DNA of 64,000 nucleotides, from assembly GCF_000024205.1 (NCBI RefSeq), contig NC_013216.1, forward strand, positions 3,224,001 to 3,288,000, written 5' to 3'. The stretch comes from Desulfofarcimen acetoxidans DSM 771. Lineage in GTDB: Bacteria; Bacillota; Desulfotomaculia; Desulfotomaculales; Desulfofarciminaceae. Shown here piece by piece: positions 7,138 to 53,541 of the stretch. The notes beneath the pieces were generated by a model that was not told the origin of the DNA, did not search any database, and was given only the letters and a program-made list of their open reading frames with translations. The translations under genes and the position numbers were made by a program. Position 1 is the first letter of the stretch. The number at the start of each line of letters is the position of its first letter.

Positions 7138-7213
<76 letters not shown>

Positions 7214-7224
7214 TTGATTTTTTA

Positions 7225-7300
7225 TGGTGACCCCACCGGGATTCGAACCCGGGTTACCGCCGTGAAAGGGCGGTGTCTTAGACCGCTTGACCATGGGGCC
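7225..7300 (-). tRNA. tRNA-Glu (anticodon TTC)
   Basis: A 76-base cloverleaf with encoded CCA. The acceptor GGCCCCA pairs with TGGGGTC (one G-U), the anticodon stem CCGCC/GGCGG carries loop CTTTCAC (anticodon TTC), and the T-loop is TTCGAAT. Confidence 0.95.
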
Positions 7301-7309
7301 GTTATAATT

Positions 7310-7384
7310 TGGTGGGCCCACCAGGATTCGAACCTGGAACCAGCCGGTTATGAGCCGGATGCTCTACCGTTGAGCTATGGGCCC
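7310..7384 (-). tRNA. tRNA-Met (anticodon CAT)
   Basis: A 75-base cloverleaf with encoded CCA. The acceptor GGGCCCA pairs fully with TGGGCCC, and the anticodon loop is CTCATAA (anticodon CAT). The paired 1-72 position argues against an initiator tRNA. CAT can also be tRNA-Ile2 after lysidine modification, so elongator Met is the favoured but not certain isotype. Confidence 0.88.
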
Positions 7385-7388
7385 TATA

Positions 7389-7463
7389 TGGCTCCCCGAG
7401 TAGGACTCGAACCTACAACCTACCGGTTAACAGCCGGTTGCTCCACCATTGAGCTATCGAGGA
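7389..7463 (-). tRNA. tRNA-Asn (anticodon GTT)
   Basis: A 75-base cloverleaf with encoded CCA and G73. The acceptor TCCTCGA pairs with TCGGGGA, and the anticodon stem ACCGG/CCGGT carries loop CTGTTAA (anticodon GTT). First gene of the tRNA operon. Confidence 0.95.
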
Positions 7464-23027: not shown

Positions 23028-23283
23028 CATAAAAAAACCCGCCACTGGCATACACCAGGGACGGGAATTATCCCGCGGTTCCACCCTGCTTGGCTGAGGT
23101 TTTGAATTCAGCCCTCTTTTCATGGTTGCAGGTTTTACTTGCTTTAGAAAAAATAAAGCTTTCCTCCTGCGGCTCAGGAAGCCCTTTCCCCAAAAAAGCA
23201 TTGCCGGCTCACACCAACCCGGCTCGCTGAAAACACGAATTCTGGGTACTCTTTCCCTCATTGCCTTTTTATTGACACTTTTT
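23028..23283 (-). ncRNA. T-box riboswitch (glycine, glyQS leader)
   Basis: The minus strand carries the T-box sequence AGGGTGGAACCGCGGG, the start of an antiterminator, followed by the terminator hairpin CCCGTCCCTGG...GGCGGG and TTTTTTTA. Upstream lie stem I elements: GAGGGAAAGAGTA and AGCGAGCCGGGTTGGTGTGA. Uncharged tRNA-Gly should stabilise the antiterminator and switch on glyQS. I did not place the specifier codon with certainty. Confidence 0.95.
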
Positions 23284-45545: not shown

Positions 45546-46691
45546 TTGCCGGTAATTTATATGGATAACGCGGCCACCTCCTGGCCCAAGCCTAAAGCCA
45601 TGCTCCAGGCCATGCAGCAATTTACAGAGGAATACGGCGCTAATCCGGGACGCTCCGGTCACCGCATGAGTCTGGCTGCGGCCAGAGTTATTAACGATAC
45701 CAGAGAAGAAATAGCATCATTGTTTGGCATAAAAAACCCCCTGAGAATTATTTTCACTCTGAATGTCACTGAAGCACTTAACCTTATCTTACACGGGCTC
45801 TTAAAGCCGGGTGATCATGTTATCACCGGCAGCATGGAACATAACTCGGTTGCCAGGCCACTGCGTGAACTGGAGAATCGCGGGGTCGAGGTTACTGTAA
45901 TCAAGTGCTCTCCCAAAGGACAGTTAACCCCGGATAAGGTTAAGAAAAGCTTTAAGAAAAACACCCGGCTGGTTATCCTTACACATGCGTCAAACGTTGC
46001 GGGAACTTTGACTCCAATTAAAGAGATAGGCAGAATTACCGGAGAGGCCGGTATTTTATTTGCTGTAGACGCTGCACAAACCGCCGGAGCCTGCCAGCTT
46101 AATGTCAAGGATATGAAAATAGATTTGCTGGCCTTTACCGGGCACAAAAGCTTACTGGGACCACAAGGTACCGGGGGACTTTACATAGCCGCCGGTGTGA
46201 ATTTAGCCCCGCTCAAGTTCGGAGGCACCGGAAGTCGCTCGGAATTGGACTTGCAGCCGGAATTTTTACCGGATCGCTATGAAAGTGGGACTCCTAATAC
46301 CATAGGATTAGCCGGTCTGGGAGCTTCTGTCAAGTTTGTACGGGAAACAGGAGTTGACAATATTTACCGCCATGAAAGGGCTCTTACCGAACAGCTTTTA
46401 CAGGAACTGGCGGGCATTAAGAATTTGCTGGTTTACGGTCCAAATGATGCTTCCATGCAAATGCCGGTTATATCCATCAATATCGAAGGAAGGGACCCTG
46501 CCGAAATAGGTCTGCTCCTGGATGAAAAATACGGTATATTAACCAGAGTAGGGCTGCACTGCGCACCCTGGGCACACAAAACAATAAATACCTTTCCGGC
46601 CGGCACAGTTCGACTCAGCCCGGGGTATTTTACTACTGCAGCTGATATAGATTACACAGTCCGGGCACTCAGAGAAATTGCCGGAGGGTAA
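45546..46691 (+). CDS. Cysteine desulfurase-like class V aminotransferase (selenium cluster)
   Basis: A PLP enzyme of about 381 residues, of the cysteine desulfurase family. MPVIYMDNAATSWPKPKAML is the typical start; the PLP lysine is in FTGHKSLLGPQGTGG, and HEHNS-like MEHNSVARP and VDAAQTAG complete the active site; the active-site Cys loop RVGLHCAPWAH is near the C-terminus. The TTG at 45546 has GGGAGTG upstream and gives the expected start, while GTG 45537 has none. It lies 31 bases before selD, and members beside selD are thought to supply selenium or sulfur for SelD. Selenocysteine-lyase-like function is inferred. Confidence 0.88.
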   Translation: MPVIYMDNAATSWPKPKAMLQAMQQFTEEYGANPGRSGHRMSLAAARVINDTREEIASLFGIKNPLRIIFTLNVTEALNLILHGLLKPGDHVITGSMEHNSVARPLRELENRGVEVTVIKCSPKGQLTPDKVKKSFKKNTRLVILTHASNVAGTLTPIKEIGRITGEAGILFAVDAAQTAGACQLNVKDMKIDLLAFTGHKSLLGPQGTGGLYIAAGVNLAPLKFGGTGSRSELDLQPEFLPDRYESGTPNTIGLAGLGASVKFVRETGVDNIYRHERALTEQLLQELAGIKNLLVYGPNDASMQMPVISINIEGRDPAEIGLLLDEKYGILTRVGLHCAPWAHKTINTFPAGTVRLSPGYFTTAADIDYTVRALREIAGG

Positions 46692-46722
46692 AGGTTTTAA
46701 TATTAGATCGGAGGTGTTCAAT

Positions 46723-47766
46723 TTGAGTAACATATCTCCAAGATTAACTCAAATGACTAAGACTTCCGGGTGAGCGGCTAAACTGGGGCCGGAAGCCCTG
46801 TCGCAGGTTCTGCGACATATTCCGTTTATGACAGACCCAAATCTCCTGGTAGGAACCGAGACTGCTGATGACGCGGCAGTCTACAGGTTAAACGAAACAA
46901 CTGCCTTAATACTTACTACCGATTTCTTTACACCGGTAGTGGACGACCCTTTCATCTTCGGACAGATTGCAGCAACCAATGCTTTGAGTGATATTTACGC
47001 CATGGGCGGTCAACCGCTGCTGGCTTTAAATATCGTATGCTTTCCCAACTGTCTTTCTACTGATATCCTGGGACTGATTCTTCAGGGCGGAGCATCGAAA
47101 GTCATAGAAGCAGGAGCAGTTATCGCCGGAGGTCATACCGTGCAGGATGATGAACCGAAATACGGGCTGGCGGTGGCAGGTCTAATCCACCCGGACAAGG
47201 TTCTAACCAACGCAAAAGCCCGGATCGGAGATGTTTTGATACTAACCAAGCCTCTGGGCACAGGAATAATAAACACTGCTATAAAAGGCGAGTTAGCCGC
47301 ACCGGAGGCTGAAAAAAAGGCTGTTGAAACTATGACTGAGTTAAACAAAGCCGCTGCACAGGCCATGCAAGCCACAGGAGTGCACGCATGTACTGATATA
47401 ACCGGGTTTGGCCTGCTGGGACACGCGGCGGAAATGGCCAGGGGCAGCGGGTTAAGCATCCAGATAGATTCATCTTCAGTATTGTTCCTGCCGGAGGTAA
47501 AAAACTTAGCCTCCATGGGTATGATTCCCGCAGGAGCCTATCATAATAAGAATTACCTGGCAGAAGATGTTTATATTAAACCCTCCGTTGATGATATAAC
47601 CGGCTTTGCACTGTATGACCCACAAACCTCCGGAGGTCTGCTGATAGCTGTTGAAGAGGAAAAGAAAGACTTGCTTATGGAAAACTTGAGCCGCAACGGT
47701 GTTCAGGAATTTGCCGCAATAGGCAAAGTAGTCGACAGGAAAGATTGTTTAATCTCAGTTGCATAG
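46723..47766 (+). CDS. selD: Selenide, water dikinase SelD, Sec-containing
   Basis: Makes selenophosphate from selenide and ATP. The full gene starts at TTG 46723 with GGAGGTG upstream and reads through a TGA at 46771-46773: TKTSG-U-AAKLGPEAL, where U17 is the catalytic selenocysteine (Cys in many relatives). The rest, from ETADDAAVYRLNETTALILT, is the conserved AIR-synthase-like fold with GGHTVQDDEPKYGLAV and DITGFGLLGHAAEM. 347 residues, normal length. An ATG at 46828 after the Sec site would give an inactive protein. A hairpin lies after the UGA. It shows that the organism has Sec insertion. Confidence 0.95.
46799..46817 (+). promoter_or_regulatory. SECIS-like hairpin in selD
   Basis: TGTCGCAG-GTT-CTGCGACA is a perfect 8-base-pair stem starting 25 bases after the UGA, with a G and U in the apical loop as in bacterial SECIS elements. 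Confidence 0.7.
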
Positions 47767-47836: not shown

Positions 47837-48436
47837 ATGTCAGAAGTCAATTGCCGGGGACTTGCCTGTCCATCTCCGGTTATCAATACTAAAAAAGCCC
47901 TGGACAATATAGAATCAGGCACAGTGACAACCATAGTTGATAACGCAATCGCGCGAGATAACGTGGCTATGTTTGCCAGGAACTCCGGTTACCAGGTTTC
48001 AGTTGATCAGCAGGGCAATGAATACTATATTACTGTAACCAAGGGAGACGAGCAGATCAAAACATCACCCGCGCCTGCTTCGACACTTAGTGAACAAAAC
48101 AACCAAATGTATTTCATATCCTCCGACAGTATAGGCAAAGGTTCGGACGAACTGGGCACTTTATTGATGAGAAGCTTCATCTTCACCTTAACCGAAATAA
48201 AACCGGTACCCGCTGGACTAATATTCGTCAATGCCGGGGTAAGGCTAACCACTGAGCATTCACCGGTACTGGAACACCTGCATACGCTGCAAAACAACGG
48301 TACTGTTATAATATCCTGCGGAACCTGCCTGGACTACTACGGTCTGAAAGAAAAGCTGGTTGTCGGCAAAATATCAAATATGTACGATATAGTAGAATAT
48401 ATGTCCGGTGCAAGCAAAGTAATTAACGTTTCATAA
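47837..48436 (+). CDS. yedF: Selenium metabolism protein YedF
   Basis: A 199-residue protein with two parts: a TusA/SirA-like N-terminus (EVNCRGLACPSPVINTKKAL, CPxP motif) and a DsrE-like C-terminus containing FVNAGVRLTTEHSPV and SCGTCLDYYGLKEKL. This layout is the YedF family that accompanies selD in selenium-using bacteria, where a persulfide or perselenide carrier role is inferred. ATG 47837 is used; AAGGAG is 12 bases away, and a TTG at 47825 directly abuts it. It is followed by an intrinsic terminator, the end of the selenium operon. Confidence 0.9.
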   Translation: MSEVNCRGLACPSPVINTKKALDNIESGTVTTIVDNAIARDNVAMFARNSGYQVSVDQQGNEYYITVTKGDEQIKTSPAPASTLSEQNNQMYFISSDSIGKGSDELGTLLMRSFIFTLTEIKPVPAGLIFVNAGVRLTTEHSPVLEHLHTLQNNGTVIISCGTCLDYYGLKEKLVVGKISNMYDIVEYMSGASKVINVS

Positions 48437-48439
48437 AAT

Positions 48440-48473
48440 AAGTAACGCCGCAGAAATTTCTGCGGCGTTACTT
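48440..48473 (+). terminator. Terminator of the selenium operon
   Basis: AAGTAACGCCGCAGA and TCTGCGGCGTTACTT form a long, perfect stem with a four-base loop and tail ATTTTAC. It ends csd-selD-yedF. Confidence 0.8.
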
Positions 48474-48596
48474 ATTTTACCATATACATTTCACAAGCAC
48501 AAAACTATTTAATTTAAGTTGTATAAAAACAAAAATTTAATTTTAAATAATGAAGGAAAATAAAATAATTTGTAGTATATATTTACTTATAAAGCT

Positions 48597-48625
48597 TTGA
48601 TGAGCAAACATGTTAAGCATAATAT
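48597..48625 (+). promoter_or_regulatory. Promoter of the Agr-like cassette
   Basis: The -35 TTGATG (48597-48602) and -10 TAATAT (48620-48625) are 17 bases apart. Transcription would start at about 48632, the first ATG of the downstream frame, so the mRNA may be nearly leaderless. Confidence 0.6.
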
Positions 48626-48631
48626 TTATTT

Positions 48632-49126
48632 ATGGAGGATAAAACAATCTCAAAAATACTAATCCACTTTTTTCTGCAAAATCTTCCTGAAAGCTTTGTA
48701 GTAATTTTATTTTGTTATTCTCTGTTAGGTATTAAAGCCAACATAAAAGACATTTTTTTATTAGCCGTTATTCAAGGAATATTTAATTTTGTAATCTTCT
48801 TACCTATAAGTTTTGGATTTCACAGTGTTATTCTAACCTTTACATTAATTTTTCTGTTATATTGGAAAACCAAAATAAATATCTCAAAAATTATACTTTG
48901 CGTTTTGGTGTGCCTATTAACATATCTTTTAATTGAGGCAATCAGTTTGCCATTAATGGTTAAGTTAACAGGTAAGCAATATAGTGTTATGTTTAATGAC
49001 CCTATTTTAAGGGCATTTTTAGCAGCACCCGTAGAATTAGCAGTTCTTTTACTAGCCATCATAAAATATAAGTTCATGGAGAAATTTAATGATTGGGGAA
49101 ATGGTTATAAATTTTCTAAAAAATAA
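48632..49126 (+). CDS. Stand-alone membrane protein resembling an AgrC-type sensor domain
   Basis: A 164-residue, very hydrophobic protein with about five membrane segments and no cytoplasmic output domain. Its start (FFLQNLPESFVVILFCYSLL) resembles the N-terminus of AgrC-like GHKL kinases of Clostridia. ATG 48632 is at the predicted transcription start without a Shine-Dalgarno; GGAGG (48634-48638) is instead ideally spaced from ATC 48647, so the real start is unclear. It overlaps agrB by 38 bases and is the first gene of the cassette. Candidate peptide receptor, decoy or partner for AgrB (inference). Confidence 0.6.
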   Translation: MEDKTISKILIHFFLQNLPESFVVILFCYSLLGIKANIKDIFLLAVIQGIFNFVIFLPISFGFHSVILTFTLIFLLYWKTKINISKIILCVLVCLLTYLLIEAISLPLMVKLTGKQYSVMFNDPILRAFLAAPVELAVLLLAIIKYKFMEKFNDWGNGYKFSKK

Positions 49127-49691
49127 CACTTCGATTAATAAAAATCAGGAGCAGATTATTGTTTTTGCCGGCCAACTAATTGAATCAACAATAATAAGTA
49201 TTTCTTTTATTATTTTCATAAGTCTAATACTTAATAATGTAAGAGAAACTCTTTTAGTGTTGCTTGCTTCCGCTTCAGTTAGGTTAGTCAGCGGTGGAGC
49301 ACATTGTGGCTCAGCAATACGTTGTGCTATATTCAGTGCCATGATTTTTCCTCTTATCGCAACTATATCCACTTTTACAGTCACTTATTTTAATTTATGG
49401 ATTTTGTTATTTATTTTATCTATATCTCTGTTACTTATCATCAGATATGCTCCGGCAGAGTCTGCCGGTAAACCTCTAGTGAATAAAGATTATATAAAAA
49501 AATTATATCGTTTATCCATAACAATTGGATTATTGGTATCCTTACTGGCATTTTTCATTTATAAGTTTAACAACAATGTTGCAATATGTATAGCATTAGG
49601 TTTTTTGTGGCAAGCGTTTTCAATTTCGCCTTTGGGGTATAAATTCATTACATCAATGGATAAGGCACTATATATAGTATTAAGGAGGTGA
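49089..49691 (+). CDS. agrB: AgrB-like cyclic peptide maturase
   Basis: Membrane cysteine protease that cuts an AgrD-type prepeptide and closes the thiolactone ring. 200 residues with about six hydrophobic segments. The catalytic pair lies in RLVSGGAHCGSAIRCAIFSA: His at GGAH and the nucleophilic Cys seven residues later, as in AgrB. GGAGA is seven bases before the ATG, which lies inside the previous gene. Its stop overlaps the AAGGAGGTGA ribosome site of agrD, five bases before the agrD ATG, so translation is coupled. Confidence 0.93.
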   Translation: MIGEMVINFLKNNTSINKNQEQIIVFAGQLIESTIISISFIIFISLILNNVRETLLVLLASASVRLVSGGAHCGSAIRCAIFSAMIFPLIATISTFTVTYFNLWILLFILSISLLLIIRYAPAESAGKPLVNKDYIKKLYRLSITIGLLVSLLAFFIYKFNNNVAICIALGFLWQAFSISPLGYKFITSMDKALYIVLRR

Positions 49692-49695
49692 TATA

Positions 49696-49830
49696 ATGAA
49701 AAAGATTTTCATGACACTCTTAACCTCATCATTGCTTACGATAATGATGTTTGTTGCCAGCGCCGGTGCACAATCTGCATGTTGGCTGGCTACTTATCAG
49801 CCCGAAGTACCGGAATGCCTGCGCAAGTAA
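49696..49830 (+). CDS. agrD: AgrD-like cyclic lactone autoinducer peptide precursor
   Basis: A 44-residue prepeptide too short for ordinary gene finding. AAGGAGGT lies just before the ATG. Residues 1-24 are an amphipathic, signal-like leader (KKIFMTLLTSSLLTIMMFVA); the mature region is SACWLATYQPEVPECLRK, with the ring Cys in CWLATY and the conserved QPEVP tail seen in clostridial AgrD peptides that is removed by AgrB. Ring residues (C-W-L-A-T and perhaps Y) are predicted. A second Cys (PECLRK) lies in the tail, which is unusual. The partner is the AgrB gene upstream. Confidence 0.88.
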   Translation: MKKIFMTLLTSSLLTIMMFVASAGAQSACWLATYQPEVPECLRK

Positions 49831-49872
49831 ATTTTTATTTAATTAAATTCTATTAAAATCAAGTAGGTCTAA

Positions 49873-49934
49873 AGTTCGAGTGTTTGCTTTAATGTTTTTG
49901 TTATCCCCAAAAGCAAGTACTCGAACATTTTTTG
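49873..49934 (+). terminator. Terminator after agrD
   Basis: GTTCGAGTGTTTGCTTT and AAAGCAAGTACTCGAAC form a long stem around a central AT-rich loop, followed by ATTTTTT. It would separate agrBD from the kinase gene, or attenuate it. Confidence 0.7.
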
Positions 49935-49964
49935 TATTTTTCCTGAACAGGTTAGGTGGTTCTT

Positions 49965-51605
49965 TTGAAATGGTTTGATCATAAGAACTATGGCTACAAA
50001 AAATTAATAAATGAAATTTATGCCTTTTGTACTGTTATCTTTGTTGTGGCAGTAATATATAAGTTTTGGTCATCTCTAGATAACTTTCCCAACATACCCA
50101 TAACATCACTTATTAAAAAAGATATACCTATTATTATTTTCATGATAAGTGTACTGTTCGGGTTTATTCTAGTTATGAAATACAGCAATGTATCGGCAGG
50201 TATTTTTATTTTGTCCATGTTTATTTTTATATTTGTTTTTGGATTTCAAGATGTTCATTTTAAGACACTATTAGTAATACCTGTAATTTTAGTTGCTTTT
50301 ACCAAGAATAAAACTGCTGGTTGTCTAATAGCAATAGGTTGCAGTTTTTCATTATTTCTTACTGATATCTTTTTTTATAAATATAGTTATCCAAACATAA
50401 TTCTAGAGTCAGATATTATTTTTACCGGTGTTATGTTAATTAGTGCATGGCTTACCGGAAATTTAGCGGGTATTGAGAGACAACATAGACAATTGCTGAG
50501 AAAAAGCCTCTCATCACTGAAAAAAGAAATTAAAGCCAGAAAAAAAGCTAATGAAAAAATGTACCAGTTAACCCGTGCAGTTGAACTCAGTCCAAGTATT
50601 ATTATAATAACTGATTTTAAAGGAAATATTGAATATACAAATCAAAAATTTAAAAAGGTTACCGGTTTTTCATCTGATGAAGTATTAAATAAAAGCATAG
50701 ATAAATTAATCATTAATCTAGATCAAGAGCAACATGTGTGGGACGCCGTAAGCTCCGGTGAAGAGTGGTCCGGGGAACTTTGCAGTAAAAAAAAGAACGG
50801 GGAGCTTTTTTGGGAGCGTGTCTCTGTTTTACCACTCAGAAACAATGAAAATATTATTACACATTTTCTCAAAGTATCCGAAGATATAACTGAACATAAA
50901 CAAATGGAAAGGGAAATAGCTCGTTTAGATAAGCTTAATTTAGTAGGAGAAATGGCTGCCGGAATCGGTCATGAAATTAGGAACCCTTTGACCACCGTTA
51001 GGGGTTTTTTGCAATTCCTTGCCACAAAAGAAGAATGTGCAAAGTATAAAAGCTATTATAGTCTTATGATAGAGGAACTGGATAGGGCCAATTCAATAAT
51101 TACAGAATATTTATCTCTGGCTAAGGATAAACCCCTAAAATTTAACATGACCAATTTAAACTCAATAATAACAACTTTATTTCCCTTAATTCAGGCTGAT
51201 GCATTGAAAAAAAATAGCAGTGTTAATCTTGAGATGAAAGACGTCCCTGATTTACTACTTGATGAAAATGAAATCCGCCAATTAATACTCAATTTAGTAC
51301 GCAATGCTTTAGAGGCAATGCCTTTAAGTGGAAATCTGACTATCAAAACATTTTCAGATGTAGACAATGTGGTTCTTGAAATACAGGATGAAGGTAAGGG
51401 GATTCCCTTGGACATAATGGAAAAAATAGGAACACCTTTCTTCACTACAAAGGATGATGGAACGGGACTGGGACTGGCAGTATGTTATAGCATAGCTGCT
51501 CGACATGATGCCAAAATAAATGTTAAAACAGGTTCAAGCGGAACTACCTTTTCAGTAAGATTCTTACCAAACCAAAATAAAAATAAAAATAAAAATTACC
51601 TATAA
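49965..51605 (+). CDS. Orphan PAS sensor histidine kinase with shared membrane domain
   Basis: A 546-residue kinase. Residues 1-165 are a membrane domain with about five to six hydrophobic segments (IYAFCTVIFVVAVIYKFW through FTGVMLISAWLTGNLAG), then a short coiled coil, a PAS domain (about 200-310), HisKA with His336 in GHEIRNPLTTVRGFLQFL, and HATPase_c with NLVRNALEAMP, DEGKGIP and GTGLGLAV. HEIRNPLTxVRGFLQ is the type seen in Spo0A phosphorelay kinases (KinA-E). No response regulator is adjacent. TTG 49965 has AGGTGG at five bases. The membrane domain is nearly the same as that of the next gene, and both follow agrBD, so it may sense the Agr peptide (inference). Confidence 0.85.
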   Translation: MKWFDHKNYGYKKLINEIYAFCTVIFVVAVIYKFWSSLDNFPNIPITSLIKKDIPIIIFMISVLFGFILVMKYSNVSAGIFILSMFIFIFVFGFQDVHFKTLLVIPVILVAFTKNKTAGCLIAIGCSFSLFLTDIFFYKYSYPNIILESDIIFTGVMLISAWLTGNLAGIERQHRQLLRKSLSSLKKEIKARKKANEKMYQLTRAVELSPSIIIITDFKGNIEYTNQKFKKVTGFSSDEVLNKSIDKLIINLDQEQHVWDAVSSGEEWSGELCSKKKNGELFWERVSVLPLRNNENIITHFLKVSEDITEHKQMEREIARLDKLNLVGEMAAGIGHEIRNPLTTVRGFLQFLATKEECAKYKSYYSLMIEELDRANSIITEYLSLAKDKPLKFNMTNLNSIITTLFPLIQADALKKNSSVNLEMKDVPDLLLDENEIRQLILNLVRNALEAMPLSGNLTIKTFSDVDNVVLEIQDEGKGIPLDIMEKIGTPFFTTKDDGTGLGLAVCYSIAARHDAKINVKTGSSGTTFSVRFLPNQNKNKNKNYL

Positions 51606-51811
51606 AACCTATGCTAATACTTTATCAAAAAATCAAAATAAATATTATGCTTAAAACCGGTAAATAAATTATCTAAAGCCTTAATGTACGCTAAATGTTT
51701 TTAAAAATAAATTATCATTAAAAATCAGCAATATATAGGGCTTAGGGCTGATCCCTATTACTTGCCGAGCTAAAATTAAAACATACAATTATTTCTACTT
51801 TGGTGATTCTT

Positions 51812-53464
51812 ATGAATAAGTGGCAAAATAATAGTGATCATAGGTATATAGGCCTAATCAATGAAATTTATGCTTTTTGTGCAGCTGTTTTTATTACAGC
51901 TGTTATATATAAATTTTGGAATATAAATGATTTCCCAAATATCCATGTAATGTCAATAATCAAAGAAGTAATACCTATAACTGTCTTTTTACTAAGTGTG
52001 CTGTTTGGTTTTACACTAATAATAAAATATAGTAACGTATCAGCGGGTATTTTTATTCTTTCTATATTTATTTTTATATTTATCTTTGGATTCCAGGATA
52101 CCCATCTAAAAACATTATTAATAATACCTGTAATTTTATTTGCTTTTACCAGGAATAAAATTGTTGGTTGTTTTGTAGCAATAGCATGTGGTTTGTCATT
52201 AGTACTTATTGATATATATTTTTATAAATATGATTACCCAAACAGAACTTTGGAGTCGGATATTATTTTTACCGGTGTTATGTTAATTAGTGCGTGGCTT
52301 ACCGGAGGAATAACAAGCATAGAGCGAGAAATCAGAGAGCATTTGATTGATATGGCTAACCGGGATGGTCTTACCGGCTTGTATAACCACAGGTTCTTAC
52401 AAGAATACTTTAAGACTCTTTCAGAAGAGACAAACAACACCGTTAGAAATATAAGTCTTATACTTTTTGATATAGATCACTTTAAATACTTTAACGATAC
52501 TTTTGGTCATACCGCCGGTGATGAAATTTTATTAAATGTAAGTAATATAGTAAAAAATCATATTAGTTATCCTTCTATTGTAGCCAGATATGGTGGAGAT
52601 GAATTTTGTATTTTATTAATTGATTATGATTTATCTTCTGCCTATAAATTAGCAAGTGAAATGTCTGAAAAGGTAGAACAACTGGTTATTAAAAATACCG
52701 AAAAATTACCCAATGGAAAGATATCAATTACTGCGGGAATAGCAAATTATCCGAGCCATACAAAACATTGTGAAAAATTAATAGATCTTGCCGATCAGGC
52801 TCTCTACAAAGCCAAAAAAACCAGCAAAAATAAAGTCGAACTGTATTTTAACGTCTTAGATTCTCTTAATACCAGCAATCCAACAGAACTTGAGCTGTTA
52901 AGTTCGATCAAAACACTTTTAAGTATAATAAATGCCAAGGATCGCTATACCTACGGGCACTCAGAACGAGTACTTGAATATTCTACATTATTGGCACAAA
53001 AATATGGACTGCCAGAAGAAGAAATCAGGTTAATCGAATACGGCGCTTACCTTCACGATATAGGAAAAATTGAAGTTGATATTGAAGTACTTAACTCTTC
53101 GGGCAAACCTACTGAGAGAGAGTGGGAAATATTAAAACAGCATCCCTATTGGGGCAGCGAAATTATCAAGCCTATTAAATCACTGGAAAAAGTAGGCCCG
53201 TATATCTTGTATCACCATGAGAATTATAACGGAACAGGCTATCCCAGCGGCTTAAAGGATACATCCATACCACTGGGAGCCAGAATAATCCGTATAGCCG
53301 ACAGTTTTGACGCTATAACCACCGACCGGCCTTATAAAAAAGGAAAGACTCAGGAAGAAGCATGTGAAGAAATTCTGTCTCTGGCCGGTGCACATTATGA
53401 TCCCGTACTGAGTAAGATTTTTGTTAAAGCAATGAGAGAGGAATATATTTTAAAAGGCAAATAG
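51812..53464 (+). CDS. Diguanylate cyclase/phosphodiesterase (GGDEF + HD-GYP) with the same membrane domain
   Basis: A 550-residue c-di-GMP signalling protein. The membrane domain (residues about 10-165) is nearly the same as that of the kinase upstream, with FNISDFPNI-like FPNI, YSNVSAGIFIL and ESDIIFTGVMLISAWLTGG shared. A GGDEF domain follows with intact GGDEF at residues 261-265 (RYGGDEFCIL) but no obvious RxxD inhibitory site, and then an HD-GYP domain with HD at 415-416 (YLHDIGKIEVD) and GTGYPSG. Both catalytic sites look intact, so it could both make and degrade c-di-GMP. The ATG at 51812 is the probable start. Confidence 0.9.
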   Translation: MNKWQNNSDHRYIGLINEIYAFCAAVFITAVIYKFWNINDFPNIHVMSIIKEVIPITVFLLSVLFGFTLIIKYSNVSAGIFILSIFIFIFIFGFQDTHLKTLLIIPVILFAFTRNKIVGCFVAIACGLSLVLIDIYFYKYDYPNRTLESDIIFTGVMLISAWLTGGITSIEREIREHLIDMANRDGLTGLYNHRFLQEYFKTLSEETNNTVRNISLILFDIDHFKYFNDTFGHTAGDEILLNVSNIVKNHISYPSIVARYGGDEFCILLIDYDLSSAYKLASEMSEKVEQLVIKNTEKLPNGKISITAGIANYPSHTKHCEKLIDLADQALYKAKKTSKNKVELYFNVLDSLNTSNPTELELLSSIKTLLSIINAKDRYTYGHSERVLEYSTLLAQKYGLPEEEIRLIEYGAYLHDIGKIEVDIEVLNSSGKPTEREWEILKQHPYWGSEIIKPIKSLEKVGPYILYHHENYNGTGYPSGLKDTSIPLGARIIRIADSFDAITTDRPYKKGKTQEEACEEILSLAGAHYDPVLSKIFVKAMREEYILKGK

Positions 53465-53473
53465 CAACGCTAT

Positions 53474-53525
53474 AAAAGTGGCGTAAGTCAGCATTCAATC
53501 AGACGCTGGCTTACGCCACTTTTAT
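53474..53525 (+). terminator. Bidirectional terminator between convergent genes
   Basis: AAAAGTGGCGTAAG...CTTACGCCACTTTT with a central part TCAGC/GCTGG and loop; T-tracts on both strands. It closes the GGDEF/HD-GYP gene and the convergent ASKHA gene. Confidence 0.85.
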
Positions 53526-53541
53526 AAATACCTCACGACTT

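Follow-up and report, generated by a model that had tools for sequence, protein, structure and literature searches.

We analysed a five-gene cassette built around the peptide-signalling genes agrB and agrD in the genome of Desulfofarcimen (formerly Desulfotomaculum) acetoxidans DSM 771, within a stretch of 64,000 nucleotides (positions 3,224,001-3,288,000, hereafter the window). Judging from its sequence, this cassette is probably a self-contained quorum-sensing unit of the agr type, with a split receptor and exchangeable effectors in place of the usual AgrC-AgrA pair. It represents a form of agr signalling that is real, widespread and apparently new. The type strain of Desulfotomaculum acetoxidans is a sulfate reducer that is motile and forms spores (PMC3035247). 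An earlier, sequence-only reading of the window had described five genes, and all of them were found there, intact:

48632-49126 (+): AgrC-N-like membrane protein, 164 amino acids and 5 helices, with a 3' end that overlaps agrB (AlphaFold confidence score, pLDDT, 91.6)
49089-49691 (+): AgrB, the peptide-processing membrane protease (PF04647, 4.8e-38, over the cut-off)
49696-49830 (+): AgrD, the 44-residue precursor of the cyclic peptide (TIGR04223, 2.8e-12, 46.5 bits against a cut-off of 19)
49780-49794 (+): predicted five-residue ring C-W-L-A-T, followed by a conserved YQPEVP (placed by spacing, with the cleavage site assumed from known AgrDs)
49965-51605 (+): orphan histidine kinase with sensor, PAS, HisKA and HATPase domains, probably Dtox_3081 (Pfam matches; specificity residues TTGFQF)
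49980-50510 (+): shared 6-helix membrane sensor domain, copy 1, weakly DUF4118-like
51812-53464 (+): sensor-GGDEF-HD-GYP protein (GGDEF 3.7e-42, HD_5 1.6e-36)
51836-52357 (+): shared 6-helix membrane sensor domain, copy 2, sister of copy 1 and within the GGDEF-HD-GYP sensor clade

All five genes have open reading frames, and their catalytic motifs, like the ring motif of AgrD, are intact. AgrB is present, as is an AgrD with its cysteine ring and conserved acidic/proline tail. An AgrC in the usual sense, a membrane sensor fused to a GHKL kinase, is not, because the GHKL half is missing and the kinase present is of the HisKA type. No AgrA or LytTR regulator was found among the open reading frames around the cassette; such regulators do occur with other AgrB genes of the genome, which has seven AgrB matches. 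The sequence-only reading had held both AgrC and AgrA to be missing. This stands for the GHKL half and the LytTR regulator, but the sensor half of AgrC is present as a detached small protein.

Linkage of the shared sensor domain to agr genes

The two effectors had been described as nearly the same over their first 165 residues or so. We confirmed this likeness (66-67% identity between the window kinase and the GGDEF-HD-GYP protein), which stops near residue 165. In a class-wide search of the Desulfotomaculia, the sensor domain was present in 71 of 113 genomes. Every sensor locus of the class was fetched and annotated, which gave 104 proteins, 98 of them scorable once contig ends were left out. 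An agrB gene lies upstream of the sensor gene, on the same strand and within 2.5 kb, in 84 of the 98 scorable cases. The median gap between the open frames of the two genes is 175 bases and agrD sits inside it. If a genome has about two agrB genes, the rate at which one would stand there by chance is, by our estimate, well below 1%. A sample of 398 Bacillota genomes from outside the class gave the same cassette in 50 of 60 scorable fetched matches, mostly with the GGDEF-HD-GYP output. The system is not limited to this genome, and the cassette is widespread in its relatives. The co-occurrence of agrBD with the sensor, which the sequence-only reading had proposed to check, is clear both inside and outside the class, and the outcome that it had named as a refutation, a common sensor without agr genes, did not occur. 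Regarding the peptide, exactly five residues run from the cysteine to the residue before (Y/H)QP in 69 of the 71 AgrDs scored from such cassettes. In the sensor cassettes of the class we found no GHKL kinase-LytTR pair to take up this peptide.

The sensor, AgrB and AgrC-N remain together as sets. The distances in the sensor and AgrB trees correlate with a rho of 0.775, whereas 300 trials in which partners were exchanged within the 15 genomes holding several cassettes averaged 0.484 and reached 0.717 at most. For the sensor and AgrC-N the correlation was 0.799, against a swap maximum of 0.700.

Profile and alignment evidence identifies the 164-residue protein as the detached N-terminal sensor half of an AgrC-type kinase, which is a separate protein in the window cassette. 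At other agr loci of the genome AgrB is accompanied by a GHKL kinase and a LytTR regulator, and the N-terminal membrane halves of these kinases align with the small protein. We drew 20 agr loci at random from those for which no sensor match was listed. A profile built solely from stand-alone small proteins of other genomes matched the N-terminal half of the GHKL kinase in 17 of them, with 39-92 bits. The matching half was fused to GHKL in 6 of these 17 loci and split from it in the rest, and in 4 of them it is followed by a sensor-type protein overlooked by the first search. Three more loci of the D. acetoxidans genome itself gave a match to this profile (33-70 bits), in fused or split form. 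AgrC-N was present in 76 of 83 cassettes, where it stands in front of agrB, and in 75 of these 76 it overlaps agrB or lies at most 20 nucleotides away. It was not found in the other 7 cassettes, some at contig ends, which keep agrB and the sensor; furthermore, it stays beside the sensor gene at several loci that have no agrB.

AgrC-N is modelled with confidence as a 5-helix membrane bundle. Neither this model nor that of the 6-helix sensor, which is only moderately confident (pLDDT 78), had a significant fold match in the PDB, and no convincing sequence relatives were found there. A profile comparison gave no sign of homology between AgrC-N and the 6-helix sensor (probability 0.4%, with few sequences in the profiles), and the GHKL kinase matches in phage records reach the kinase half alone. 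Among the unlinked agrB loci we also saw another gene order, agrB followed by AgrC-N and then a sensor-type protein of another subfamily (L240, L241, L247 and L248).

Outputs of the sensor family and the window kinase

The 104 sensor proteins of the class comprise 52 kinases, 51 GGDEF-HD-GYP proteins and 1 protein that is cut off; no other output was found among them. Each output forms clusters in the sensor tree, yet the two are intermingled, with 6-7 changes, at least 4 of which are forced by supported branches. A single clade of all kinase-type sensors was rejected (approximately unbiased test, p 6e-36). The sensor of the window kinase is the sister of that of the neighbouring GGDEF protein (support 100/99), and both nest in a clade which otherwise holds GGDEF-HD-GYP sensors only. 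AgrB and AgrC-N of the window also group among the GGDEF-type cassettes. The kinase part, in turn, has as its sister the kinase of L019, a second agr cassette in this genome (71% identity, support 100), and near residue 165 the higher identity passes from the one relative to the other. These trees mark the window kinase as a chimera, with its sensor from the neighbouring c-di-GMP (cyclic di-GMP) protein and its kinase from the second agr cassette. The simplest history would start from an ancestral cassette of the small protein, AgrB, AgrD and the GGDEF protein, into which a kinase joining the local sensor to the kinase of the other cassette was inserted. The sequence-only reading had proposed that one sensor domain could serve two outputs, and it gains support from the family carrying either output, from the repeated switches and from the chimeric kinase.

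The second full cassette (L019, 7831-10801, minus strand) consists of AgrC-N, AgrB, AgrD with the ring CAVTN and a sensor-PAS kinase. At another locus (L127, genome G095) a single set of small protein, AgrB and AgrD is followed by two sensor-kinases in tandem, that is, one peptide locus with two effectors.

In the GGDEF-HD-GYP protein of the window the GGDEF and HHExxxGxGYP motifs are intact and no RxxD inhibition site was seen; because of these intact motifs, it could make or break c-di-GMP. Among the 51 members of this type in the class, GGDEF or GGEEF is kept in 45 and the HD-GYP motif in 49. No c-di-GMP riboswitch was found in the window at the Rfam cut-offs. Two relatives near the GGDEF-type sensor of the window keep the sensor-GGDEF-HD-GYP gene with an agrB that has an in-frame stop (L077, genome G051) or with agrBD missing (L078, genome G052). 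It is possible that these are signal-blind or eavesdropping receivers.

Regarding the kinase, its Pfam matches are HATPase_c (5.4e-22), HisKA (2.9e-12) and PAS_9 (2.5e-18), and its His336, with the codon at 50970-50972, lies in a HEIRNP motif. Davidson and colleagues described seven orphan kinases in D. acetoxidans, six of which have PAS domains and specificity residues like those of Bacillus KinA-KinE, and they proved the Spo0F-Spo0B-Spo0A relay of the species in vitro with one kinase, Dtox_1918 (PMC6136694). Dtox_3081 was already predicted there to feed this relay; Dtox_3081 and Dtox_3426 were not assayed and agr is not mentioned (PMC6136694). The window kinase is an orphan kinase with PAS, and its specificity residues, TTGFQF, are of the KinA-KinE type, TxGFQx, which is found in most agr-linked kinases of the class. 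It is most likely Dtox_3081, as this is the sole listed kinase ending in F, and the kinase of the second cassette (TTGFQL) is probably Dtox_3426, by its residues and the gene order. The predicted target of the window kinase is Spo0F and not Spo0A directly, because the specificity residues fit Spo0F-directed kinases (PMC6136694). The link to Spo0A suggested by the sequence-only reading is thus supported one step upstream, whereas a direct action on Spo0A is not. Spo0A occurs in 105 of the 113 class genomes and therefore does not discriminate for a link to sporulation. No receiver gene was found in the window cassette or beside the related kinases; an approximate generic query gave 56 receiver domain matches in the genome, which indicates that many exist.

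Proposed signal route and its alternatives

In the route that we propose, AgrD would be cut and cyclised by AgrB into a thiolactone peptide with the ring CWLAT. This peptide would be sensed in the membrane by the 6-helix domain common to both effectors, most likely joined by the AgrC-N-like 5-helix protein as receptor or co-receptor. The first effector, the PAS kinase, would alter the flow of phosphate to Spo0F, Spo0B and Spo0A and hence sporulation, and the second, the GGDEF-HD-GYP protein, would alter c-di-GMP; the activity of both and the direction of each response are what we infer. In D. acetoxidans one signal would have two outputs, whereas most relatives have one output per cassette. 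To a broader reading we give about even weight: there would be a second widespread agr branch in the Bacillota, which arose by a split of AgrC. The sensor half would have turned into a co-receptor beside AgrB, and a 6-helix effector with exchangeable output would have taken over from the GHKL kinase. In this way the peptide could directly affect the c-di-GMP pool and, in the Desulfotomaculia, the Spo0 phosphorelay, and both here through a kinase grafted onto the sensor of the c-di-GMP protein.

Several observations weigh against the proposed route. Among the scorable class sensors, 14 of 98 have no agrB nearby, and the near relative G052 keeps its GGDEF-HD-GYP gene without agrBD; because of these cases, the sensor can persist without local peptide genes. 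The sensor is weakly and distantly like DUF4118, a KdpD-type membrane domain without known peptide binding. The window sensor scores 20.6 bits, below the Pfam gathering threshold of 28.4, and weak matches occur in 33 of 51 sensor members. Joint inheritance of one operon can also yield the match between the trees. The TxGFQx residues are common to all six PAS orphan kinases of the species (PMC6136694) and are hence no particular marker of an agr link. Finally, a hairpin after agrD may split the transcripts. Three terminator-like hairpins were found in and around the cassette:

48434-48479 (no strand assigned): strong and perfect terminator-like hairpin at the border between the selenium-related genes upstream and the cassette (fold -32.5 kcal/mol, z -11)
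49874-49926 (+): terminator-like hairpin between agrD and the kinase gene, with 17 unbroken pairs and a T-rich tail (z -2.8)
53471-53526 (no strand assigned): strong terminator-like hairpin that closes the unit (fold -35.7 kcal/mol, z -10)

The second of these bears out the terminator that the sequence-only reading had placed between agrD and the kinase. The sequence right after its 17 pairs is ATTTTTTGT. A standard terminator scan overlooked it, because the loop has 19 nucleotides. Comparable hairpins follow agrD in 16 of 70 cassettes, against 1.2 expected from shuffled gaps, so that a hairpin 3' of agrD is a recurring, not a universal, feature. Since the kinase starts only some 40 bases further on, a leaky terminator seems likelier than a separate promoter for the kinase. 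Between the kinase and GGDEF-HD-GYP genes no significant structure was found in the first 150 bases (z -0.7).

Among the alternatives, a possible, if rather unlikely, one is a variant of the proposed route with the same signal flow. AgrC-N would be the sole peptide receptor and the 6-helix domain a transmission module on which it docks, as it would on the 2-helix GHKL half in a split AgrC. It fits the homology of AgrC-N to the AgrC sensor half, which in the classical loci of the same bacteria is fused to or split from GHKL kinases, and also the agrB-less loci where AgrC-N stays beside the sensor gene. However, the 7 cassettes in which AgrC-N was not found, some at contig ends, speak against it, and so does the sensor tree, which follows that of AgrB closely.

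An output other than sporulation, through a response regulator different from Spo0F, is unlikely for the kinase. No response regulator adjoins these kinases and the genome has dozens of receiver domains, as this would allow. Nevertheless, TTGFQF and TTGFQL match Spo0F-using kinases, the window kinase is a PAS-containing orphan, and a further kinase of the species, whose residues are almost identical, drives the relay in vitro (PMC6136694).

We consider less probable still that the genes are only neighbours, the effectors being co-transcribed with agrBD and sensing, for instance, the state of the membrane, whereas the peptide acts elsewhere. The likeness to DUF4118, the 14 sensors without agrB and the hairpin 3' of agrD could be explained in this way, but not easily the linkage over dozens of genera with varied outputs, fixed gene order and matched trees, nor the cassettes with no GHKL kinase-LytTR pair to receive the peptide. 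A system decaying in D. acetoxidans, with one or both effectors running without signal, is very improbable. The terminal branches of the window AgrB (1.57) and AgrC-N (0.99) are among the long ones of their trees and would fit it, but all frames are open and the catalytic and AgrD ring motifs intact.

The proposed unit shares with the Staphylococcus-type agr system (AgrB-AgrD-AgrC-AgrA) the known AgrB and AgrD families, the five-residue cysteine ring and an AgrC-N homologue beside AgrB. Unlike that system, it has no GHKL kinase or LytTR regulator; its sensor half stands alone as a protein, and either a 6-helix PAS kinase or a GGDEF-HD-GYP enzyme serves as the effector. Bacillus subtilis KinA-KinE are also orphan kinases with TxGFQx residues; we know of no peptide-maker genes beside them. 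In D. acetoxidans, Dtox_1918, Dtox_3081 and Dtox_3426 have the same type of specificity residues (PMC6136694), and the last two are most likely the agr-linked kinases found here. AgrB1D1 of Clostridioides difficile is likewise an agrBD without agrCA and tied to sporulation, as AgrD1 promotes the early stage of sporulation (PMC11210211). There the path, with the kinase that connects to Spo0A, is unknown, whereas here a Spo0F-type kinase lies within the cassette. In the agr2 system of C. difficile 027, agr also influences c-di-GMP, but it is the agrA mutant that shifts GGDEF/EAL transcript levels (PMC3754575), whereas here the c-di-GMP enzyme itself bears the sensor. In open full texts, with most subscription papers and preprints outside the coverage, we found no description of agrBD linked to a GGDEF-HD-GYP protein or to a Spo0F-type kinase, in line with the sequence-only reading, which knew of no described system of this form.

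How agr peptides reach Spo0A in clostridia without AgrC and AgrA is a stated open question (PMC11210211). A Spo0F-type kinase inside an agr cassette, together with a reconstituted phosphorelay in the same species, makes this question directly testable. If the proposed route is true, the GGDEF-HD-GYP protein would be the first direct receptor from agr peptide to c-di-GMP that could be found. Furthermore, the repeated natural swaps of output on one sensor are ready-made chimeras for the study of agr receptor signalling. The whole looks like an undescribed route by which bacterial groups steer sporulation and c-di-GMP-controlled behaviour by one signal.

Neighbouring and other loci

Upstream of the cassette, selD (window 46675-47766, plus strand) contains an in-frame TGA at 46771-46773 that is read through (KTSGUAAKLGPEA), and it probably encodes a selenocysteine-containing SelD. 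It is preceded by a cysteine-desulfurase-like gene (45537) and followed by a YedF/TusA-like gene (47825). Region L016 (2500-19900) holds a single intact agr locus together with broken pieces of agrB. Transposase-like genes surround them, and small proteins that look secreted are encoded close by. Elsewhere in the window, on the minus strand, there are a T-box leader (23054-23270) and a cluster of four tRNA genes (7141-7463).

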